DNA from: Oscillospiraceae bacterium
Lineage (GTDB): Bacteria; Bacillota; Clostridia; Oscillospirales; Ruminococcaceae
DNA: 39,428 nucleotides
Assembly: GCA_029267825.1 (NCBI GenBank)
Contig: JAJUHO010000005.1
Location: 1-39,428, forward strand
Direction of reading: 5' to 3'
Of this stretch, positions 26,326 to 28,973 are shown piece after piece. The first letter of the stretch is position 1; each line of letters opens with the position of its first letter. The notes beneath the pieces were generated by a model. The model worked only from the letters and a program-made list of their open reading frames with translations, did not search any database and was not told the origin of the DNA. A program made the position numbers and the translations under genes.

Positions 26326-28086
26326 TTAATATTTGTCATTGAATTGGAATTCCATGTCTGGTTCTTTGCTTTCCGTATAATCATCAAGGTTTATTTGAGT
26401 AGATGAGGGTTGTGATTCATTGTTTTTGAGCTTAAAAGTGGATATTTGTTCTTTAAGTATGTTTGCCTGCGAGGAAAGCTCTTCGCTTGAAGCAGCACTT
26501 TCTTCGGCTGTTGCGGAATTTGTCTGAACTACTGAGGAAATTTGCTCTATGCCGCGGTTGATTTGCTCAATAGCCTCAGCTTGTTCGGTCGAGGCATTTG
26601 AAATATCCTGCATTGCTTTTGAAACAAGCATAGTCTTTTCTTCAATTTCAGAAAGGGAAGAAGCGGTTTGTTCGGCAATTTGAGAGCCGTTTTGTACGAT
26701 TTGGATTGAATTTTCAATAAGGGATGTTGTTTGCTTTGCCGCATCCGCACTTTTTGAGGCAAGGTTGCGTACCTCGTCGGCAACGACTGCAAAGCCTTTT
26801 CCAGCGGCTCCGGCTCGTGCAGCTTCTACTGCGGCGTTAAGGGCAAGTATATTGGTCTGGAAAGCAATATCGTCTATAACCTTGATTATTTTTGATATTT
26901 CGTTTGAGGAATTGCCTATTTCCGACATGGCGGAAAGCATGTTGCGCATTTGCTCCATTCCGCGGACCACACCTTCACCGGCATCATTTGCGTATTGCGC
27001 GGCAAGTGAAACATTTTTTGCATTTTCGGTAATTTGAGAAGAAATCTGCATAATTGATGCGGAAAGCTCCTCAATTGAGCTTGCTTGTTCAGTTGAGCCT
27101 TGCGACAGCGACTGCGCTCCGCTTGATACCTGCTGCGCTCCAAGTGAAACTTGCTCGGCGGCATGATTTATTTCTGCAAACATATTGTTTAGCTGTTCAA
27201 CCGTGCCCTTTAAAGCAATTCCCATTACATCTTTTTCGGAACGCGGTTCGATTTCAATGCTCAAATCCCCTTGGGCAAGCGCCAGTACGACTGTAACTTG
27301 CTCTTTTATACCTTCAATCATCCTGTGAAATGCCTCTGCAAGCATTCCGGTTTCATCACGGCTTTCAATTTCTATTTGTACTTCCGTATTTCCAAGGGCA
27401 ATTTCATTTGCCGCCTCAACCATTTTGTTTATTGGCTTGCTGATTATCCTTGAAATGTATCTTGCCAAAAGTATTGATGCTAAAAGTCCCAAAACAACAA
27501 CGCTGAAAAGCACTATTGAAAGGATTAGGAAAAGCCTGTCGTTTGAATCGCTTGTAGCTTTTGCGTTTGAGAATCTGTTATCTATGCATTGACTGTAATC
27601 TGCAAACATTTTGTCTATTGATTTGCTTGCACTTTCAATGGAAGCTTCAGCTCCGCTTGAATTTCCCGATTTTAAAAGCGAAAAAACTTTTTGCGATAAA
27701 GTAAGAAATTCATTGTTAAAAATATTTTGAGCCTCATCAAACAATGCTTTGCTTTGCGAACTTGCTATACTGCTTTCATATTTTTCAGCAGCTTCTTTAT
27801 ATGAAGAAACAAGGCTATTAAAATCGTCCTCATAATTTTTAAGTGAATTTAAATCTTCTGAATTAAGGGTTGCAGAAAGCAAATCAGCCCTCATTTTGTA
27901 AAGGTTCGTTGTAATGGTAAACATATCGCTTAACGGCTTTGTCTGTTTTTCATAAAGCTTTGTATCTGCCGAATCGATGGCAAACATTCCCGCAATTCCG
28001 ACGGCACCTATAATTGTTGCGATAATTGATATCACCAAAAATCCTGCCGCAAGCTTTTTTGAAATTTTCATGTCTTTGAGTTTCAT
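26326..28086 (-). CDS. Methyl-accepting chemotaxis protein
   Basis: The 586-residue chemoreceptor has TM1 (about 12-34), an outside four-helix-type sensor (about 35-184), TM2 (about 185-207), a HAMP domain (about 208-262), a second HAMP-like segment (about 265-315, [20 protein letters not shown]) and the MA signalling coiled coil (about 320-570). The kinase-contact tip [23 protein letters not shown] is intact. There is no C-terminal methylation-enzyme docking pentapeptide. It signals to CheA/CheW; the ligand is unknown. The ORF-track start at 28317 is a TTG; ATG at 28086 ([12 protein letters not shown]) follows CGGAGGA and gives a standard MCP opening. The leader carries two large hairpins. 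Confidence 0.93.
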
Positions 28087-28147
28087 ATAAATTCCTCCGT
28101 TTGATGTCTTTATTTTAATTTTGCTTTGGAACCGGGAAAAAAATTCA

Positions 28148-28186
28148 GAACAACAGCCATGGCGCATAGCGTCATGGCTGTTGTTC
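28148..28186 (-). promoter_or_regulatory. Terminator-like hairpin in the chemoreceptor leader
   Basis: GAACAACAGCCATG and CATGGCTGTTGTTC are exact 14-bp complements; the tip continues with CGC/GCG, giving a stem of about 18 bp with one G-U or A-C position. On the minus strand it is followed four bases later by TTTTTTT, about 65 bp before the receptor ribosome site. The form is that of a transcription attenuator upstream of the gene. Confidence 0.6.
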
Positions 28187-28223
28187 AGAGGTTTTTCAGC
28201 TAAGGTAAACAAAGTATAGGACA

Positions 28224-28259
28224 ACTTAAATTTCATAGCAAATAGCCATGGGTTTAAGT
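28224..28259 (-). promoter_or_regulatory. Upstream leader hairpin that may compete with the attenuator
   Basis: In minus-strand RNA ACUUAAA pairs with UUUAAGU and, inside it, CAUGGC with GCUAUG (with a G-U pair that exists only in minus-strand RNA). Its strand CCAUGGCUAUU can instead pair with AACAGCCAUG, the first arm of the terminator-like hairpin, at 9 of 10 positions, which is what an antiterminator would do. Confidence 0.4.
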
Positions 28260-28407: not shown

Positions 28408-28443
28408 AGATAATTTTTGCAAATATTTTTGCAAAAATTATCT
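28408..28443. repeat. Perfect 16-4-16 inverted repeat between the chemoreceptor and XRE genes
   Basis: AGATAATTTTTGCAAA and TTTGCAAAAATTATCT are exact complements separated by four bases, and TTTTTGCAAA is also repeated directly. No U-tract follows, so it is not a terminator. It ends 9 bp before a plus-strand promoter. The rest of 28260-28590 is AT-rich and shows no gene. Confidence 0.6.
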
Positions 28444-28591: not shown

Positions 28592-28641
28592 TATAATTGG
28601 AAATTTCCAAAATGTCAATAGAAAATTTGGAATTTTCCAAA
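28592..28641 (+). promoter_or_regulatory. XRE promoter -10 with two palindromic operators
   Basis: TATAAT (28592-28597) is followed by the perfect palindrome TTGGAAATTTCCAA (28597-28610) and the near-perfect TTTGGAATTTTCCAAA (28626-28641). Their centres are 30 bp apart, about three helical turns, so two dimers could bind the same face. No good -35 is seen 17 bp upstream of this TATAAT. Autorepression by the XRE product is the simplest reading. Confidence 0.6.
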
Positions 28642-28658: not shown

Positions 28659-28973
28659 ATGATTTGCCGTATACAATATCTTATGGAACAAAATAATATA
28701 ACTCCGTCTAAATTATGTTCTGATTTAGGACTTGCAAAAAGCTCGATAACGGATTGGAAAAAAGGAAAGGCAAAGCCTTCGGTAGAAGCTTTGGTTAAAA
28801 TAAGCGAATATTTTAATGTTTCCCTTGATTGGCTTATAACAGGAAAAGAATATAAAAAAGAAATCACAGAAGATGAAGAGGAAATTTTAAAAATGTATAG
28901 CCAGTTGGATTTTGAAAAAAAGGCCGAGGTTCGCGGATTTTTAAAAGGACTTTTGTCACTTCAAACAGTGTAA
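28659..28973 (+). CDS. XRE-family repressor-like protein
   Basis: The 104-residue protein has a Cro/C1-type HTH (about 5-60: LMEQNNITPSKLCSDLGLAKSSITDWKKGKAKPSVEALVKISEYFNVSLDWLITG), with the common closing motif of phage-like and SinR-like repressors, and a short C-terminal helical region (about 70-104, DEEEILKMYSQLDFEKKAEVRGFLKGL) that probably dimerises. The ORF-track start at 28566 translates the promoter and operators; ATG at 28659 follows GTGAGGAT. Two strong palindromes lie just upstream, pointing to autoregulation. No phage or toxin genes are nearby, so it is a stand-alone regulator or a relic; its other targets are unknown. Confidence 0.9.
   Translation: MICRIQYLMEQNNITPSKLCSDLGLAKSSITDWKKGKAKPSVEALVKISEYFNVSLDWLITGKEYKKEITEDEEEILKMYSQLDFEKKAEVRGFLKGLLSLQTV

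Follow-up and report, generated by a model that had tools for sequence, protein, structure and literature searches.

Intrinsic-terminator attenuators located in 5' untranslated regions (5' UTRs) act by premature termination (PMC7815308). The leader of a chemoreceptor gene in the 39,428-nt stretch of DNA analysed here (the window, a contig in the 2.14-Mb draft genome of a gut Oscillospiraceae bacterium, G000) resembles them in having a GC-rich stem and a U-tract between promoter and gene but differs from them in that no leader peptide with a fair ribosome-binding site (RBS), no aptamer and no convincing antiterminator were identified in it. The c-di-GMP-I (GEMM-I) riboswitch (RF01051), for which at least one match is present in 38 of the 149 genomes of the family searched, is also found on genes for methyl-accepting chemotaxis proteins. 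A receptor gene of another genus (L063 in genome G034), whose product is 51% identical to the window receptor, is preceded by a c-di-GMP-I aptamer (75.3 bits, L063:1340-1423) with its own terminator, in the same position before the gene as the window leader hairpin. The two leaders are alike in that a terminator stands before the RBS of a chemoreceptor gene of the same bacterial family, and unlike in that the window leader lacks the aptamer. The targets of ANTAR and BglG/LicT-type antiterminators likewise combine a terminator with another conserved element before it, but differ in that the window leader has no Rfam match to them. Paired hexaloops and the RAT sequence, features of these targets, were not recognised in the leader by eye. 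Literature searches found no published description of this leader.

Rfam covariance-model searches of the window at gathering score found tRNAs only and no cis-regulatory class, and the corresponding leader of the second species has no credible match. These searches bear out the sequence-only reading, which had seen neither a c-di-GMP-I core nor any other known class. No RF01051 match is present in the leader, either at gathering score or at E<=5, or in either genome of the genus, and no c-di-GMP-II (RF01786) match was found in the leader or in either genome in a genome search that included no positive control genome. A degenerate c-di-GMP riboswitch was therefore rejected, although both genomes encode GGDEF proteins. 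Low-score Rfam matches, to microRNA models among others, were set aside as generic hairpin matches. No short open reading frame with a fair Shine-Dalgarno sequence upstream of the terminator, as a leader-peptide attenuator would have, is common to both species, and the sole shared short frame with such a sequence starts inside the terminator hairpin.

The chemoreceptor gene (26326-28086, minus strand) encodes a methyl-accepting chemotaxis protein of 586 residues with a four-helix-bundle sensor domain (4HB_MCP_1), a HAMP domain and a signalling domain (MCPsignal) assigned by Pfam. Its ATG start codon lies at 28086 and its RBS, GGAGG, at 28098-28094, and this RBS is conserved in the only other genome of the genus available for comparison (G001), in which the receptor counterpart is 79% identical. 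A small Cro/C1-type helix-turn-helix (HTH) regulator, likewise assigned by Pfam, is encoded divergently from the receptor at 28659-28973 on the plus strand, and a protein that is 82% identical occupies the same place in G001. Beyond the HTH gene lie two minus-strand tRNA genes with a terminator of their own at 29076-29036, and G001 shows the same gene order from the tRNAs through the HTH gene to the receptor gene.

The lower of two hairpins in the leader is formed by the minus-strand RNA from 28186 to 28148, GAACAACAGCCAUGACGC-UAU-GCGCCAUGGCUGUUGUUC, in which UAU is the loop. The stem has 17 pairs in 18 positions, arranged as 14 and 3 pairs on the two sides of an A.C mismatch between 28172 and 28162, and beyond a U.U mismatch at its base two more pairs are followed by pairing of an A-tract with a U-tract. 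The seven U at 28143-28137, which become UUUUUGUUU in G001, begin about 1 nt past the extended stem and 4-5 nt from the core stem alone. The hairpin of about 18 bp with seven T before the receptor RBS, and the mismatch near its tip, are thus as the sequence-only reading had described them. The 126-nt segment 28135-28260 folds with -42.7 kcal/mol compared with -17.6 +/- 2.8 kcal/mol for its shuffles (z = -8.9), none of 200 shuffles is as stable, and the stability of the lower hairpin far exceeds chance. When the basal extension is included, the stable hairpin is followed by a U-rich tract within about 2 nt in both species, as expected of an intrinsic terminator.

The lower hairpin of G001 has AUA in place of UAU as its loop and an A-U pair in place of the A.C mismatch, so that all 18 positions are paired; one U-A pair of the basal extension is U-G there, and the tail is rearranged but still U-rich. 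Because of the A.C mismatch, which is a G-U pair on the plus strand, the minus-strand form of the window hairpin is weaker than the plus-strand form (-31.6 versus -38.2 kcal/mol), whereas in G001 the two strands are about equal (-38.2 minus versus -37.3 plus) and the U-G basal pair fits minus-strand RNA. The upper hairpin at 28259-28224 is the second nested hairpin proposed earlier, with 7 and 6 pairs, and it contains one G-U pair and folds with -10.6 kcal/mol on the minus strand compared with -8.6 kcal/mol on the plus strand. A hairpin as stable as this one is present in 3% of shuffled leaders. The argument that the G-U pair points to function in minus-strand RNA holds for the upper hairpin, but the lower hairpin of the window folds better on the plus strand, which leaves the choice of strand ambiguous.

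The G001 leader can be aligned with that of the window from one end of the intergenic region to the other, and identity is about 80-88% over most of it. A DNA search of 299 genomes of the family gave no comparable leader beyond this congeneric one, the other matches being short and at chance level, and a protein-based scan of contigs added L065, which carries the same leader as G001, and L066, a 48% relative without the leader. A pattern scan of viral contigs for the leader gave no match, and a second copy is absent from its own genome, so a dispersed repeat was rejected. The leader is a modest, genus-restricted and unclassified element. A block of 75 nt at 28243-28169 is identical in both species, while nearby intergenic DNA is about 83% identical; since the chance of 75 identical nucleotides at that background is about 1e-6 per start position by our own arithmetic, the block is constrained. 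A candidate leader peptide of 23 letters matching the invariant block has no ribosome site and shows no synonymous change, and its frame continues into the receptor in the window and stops in G001; it was rejected, and the conservation was judged to be a nucleotide-level constraint. The three G001 changes in the upper hairpin all fall at unpaired positions, in its internal and terminal loops, leaving the stem unaffected, and both hairpins are kept in this leader, the only comparable one in the collections searched. With two sequences compared, no covariation is seen, as no pair is changed on both sides, so the conservation is of structure without compensatory change. The pattern is better explained by conservation of each hairpin for its own sake than by competition between them.

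A consensus promoter, P1 (28618-28590; TTGACA-17-TATAAT, 12/12), faces the receptor gene, is identical in G001 and is matched by none of 200 shuffles. A candidate promoter, P2 (28241-28213; TTGCTA-17-TATACT, 9/12, start at about 28206), is not significant alone but is conserved, lying within the invariant block in both species and overlapping the upper hairpin, which forms a dyad over its -35 box. A start at P1 (about 28583) would place both hairpins in the transcript and a start at P2 only the lower one, if these candidate promoters are used. A late start, which the sequence-only reading named as refuting its proposal if it fell downstream of 28148, may in part apply, as P2 would start transcription below the upper hairpin and P1 above it. 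Neither species has a promoter match of at least 9/12 between the lower hairpin and the RBS. Transcripts from either candidate promoter must therefore pass the lower hairpin. Two palindromes, TTTGGAAAWTTCCAA (28597-28611 and 28627-28641), lie at P1, in the interval that separates the HTH gene from the consensus promoter divergent to it, and neither genome of the genus has a further exact copy. They are probably private operators of the regulator, the HTH protein encoded divergently being the obvious candidate to bind them. A second highly conserved stretch at about 28513-28412 holds a 16-bp A/T-rich palindrome, GATAATTTTTGCAAA...TTTGCAAAAATTATC (28408-28443), followed by no real T-run on either strand, which is likely to be another operator. 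A dyad search for ACTTAAA...TTTAAGT gave fewer matches than the reversed control and was rejected.

From the hairpin, its U-tract, their conservation and their placement before the receptor RBS, we infer that the 5' leader carries an intrinsic terminator close to the promoter, which may limit transcription into the chemoreceptor gene, a reading that we put forward tentatively. A terminator-based attenuator, whether conditional or leaky, is the best and most economical reading, and attenuation in this broad sense is likely, judging from the sequence. RNA polymerase would start at P1, at P2 or at both, P1 probably being controlled by the divergent HTH regulator, and a large share of the polymerase would stop at the U-tract near 28137. 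Full-length receptor mRNA would then arise by readthrough, which could be simply leaky or could be raised by a factor; the target of such a factor could be the 39-nt linker (28223-28185), which is invariant and precedes the hairpin. The terminator reading is favored by the stability of the hairpin together with the U-tract, by their retention in G001 with 75 identical nucleotides, and by the lack of a promoter between the hairpin and the RBS. It is also favored because the minus strand has no upstream protein gene to be terminated, while the tRNAs, which lie about 900 nt away, are served by a separate terminator. In the 48% relative L066, and in the receptor paralogs with placeable starts in the two genomes, inspected by eye, the interval from promoter to gene contains no such hairpin, whereas L063 has an aptamer and a terminator in this place, providing a precedent close by for leader-terminator control of such receptors. 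The reading is weakened by the 4-5 nt that separate the U-tract from the core stem if the imperfect extension at its base is not formed, by the A.C mismatch in the window hairpin and by the fact that two sequences give no covariation. If termination is conditional, the cell would decide at the RNA level whether one chemoreceptor is made, in parallel with the supposed role of c-di-GMP riboswitches in the expression of a related receptor of this bacterial family, and the kind of leader control over one receptor family would differ between lineages. If termination is merely leaky, it would be ordinary.

Another reading, somewhat unlikely but the strongest of the alternatives to the leader terminator, is that the upper hairpin is a DNA dyad over the -35 box of P2 bound by a regulator, with transcription starting at about 28206 and giving a leader of about 120 nt that contains only the lower hairpin. 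The presence of TTGCTA-17-TATACT in the invariant block of both species is consistent with this, as is the position of the paralog promoters recognisable by eye, which sit roughly 60-90 nt before the start codon. However, chance alone would give about 4 matches of 9/12 in this region, and a 12/12 promoter, P1, is present upstream. Moreover, RNA is the better fit for two features of the upper hairpin: the inner spacing of its half-sites is unequal (2 and 3 nt) in both species, and its G-U pair does not contribute to symmetry at the DNA level.

The hairpin may instead end an independent noncoding RNA of about 440 nt that is transcribed from P1 under HTH control, the receptor being expressed through leak or from an unrecognised promoter. 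We consider this improbable. P1, a 12/12 match identical in G001 with palindromes unique to the site, would suit such an RNA, and above the hairpin the fold of the minus-strand leader is somewhat more stable than those of column shuffles (z -2.9); but on the plus strand the fold of this stretch is even more stable (z -4.8), which fits DNA palindromes, and no promoter was found after the hairpin. It is quite improbable that the hairpin is a 5'-UTR stabiliser or processing site rather than a terminator. The gap between the core stem and the U-tract points in this direction, and a leader hairpin, though one without a U-tract, is also present in front of the vanY-like gene nearby; that hairpin, however, is absent in G001, whereas the receptor hairpin and its U-rich tail are kept. 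A rare genus-restricted RNA that senses a ligand or protein and controls antitermination of the chemoreceptor gene, with the invariant 39-nt linker as the sensor in a lineage without c-di-GMP-I, is distinctly improbable.

The sequence-only reading had proposed a riboswitch or attenuator in which CAUGGCUAUU (28250-28241) pairs with the first arm of the terminator (28182-28173) in a structure exclusive of the two hairpins. The two segments are indeed complementary at 9 of 10 positions, but this is not unusual, as shuffling gives a match as good in 118 of 1000 trials for the 100 nt upstream and in 127 of 300 for the 384-nt leader (12-42%). The energy of the best duplex is rarer than the match count, reached by a fraction of 0.019 of the shuffles, because CAUGGC is GC-rich. 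The forced alternative fold has -19.3 compared with -42.7 kcal/mol, about 23 kcal/mol weaker, and even in a transcript in which the second arm has yet to be made it is still not preferred (-13.6 versus -15.2). G001 has C in place of U at 28244, which breaks one of the nine alternative pairs and leaves the stem of the upper hairpin intact, and a conserved pairing of these segments that competes with the terminator is not supported. Although both hairpins are conserved with changes in their loops and the duplex energy is among the best 2% of shuffles, the chance-level match, the energetic disadvantage, the weaker pairing in G001 and the lack of an Rfam class make a true switch of this kind very improbable. 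What stands of the attenuator claim is the conserved terminator-like hairpin, with no alternative promoter found downstream of it; the specific switch is unsupported.

Two further features of the locus were observed. For the vanY-like gene, a 12/12 promoter lies at 26245-26218 and the leader hairpin, of 15 bp, at 26188-26155. In the window, unlike in G001, the receptor frame continues across the leader without a stop as far as 28317 (28317-28086), and an annotation program could call the receptor start too far upstream.
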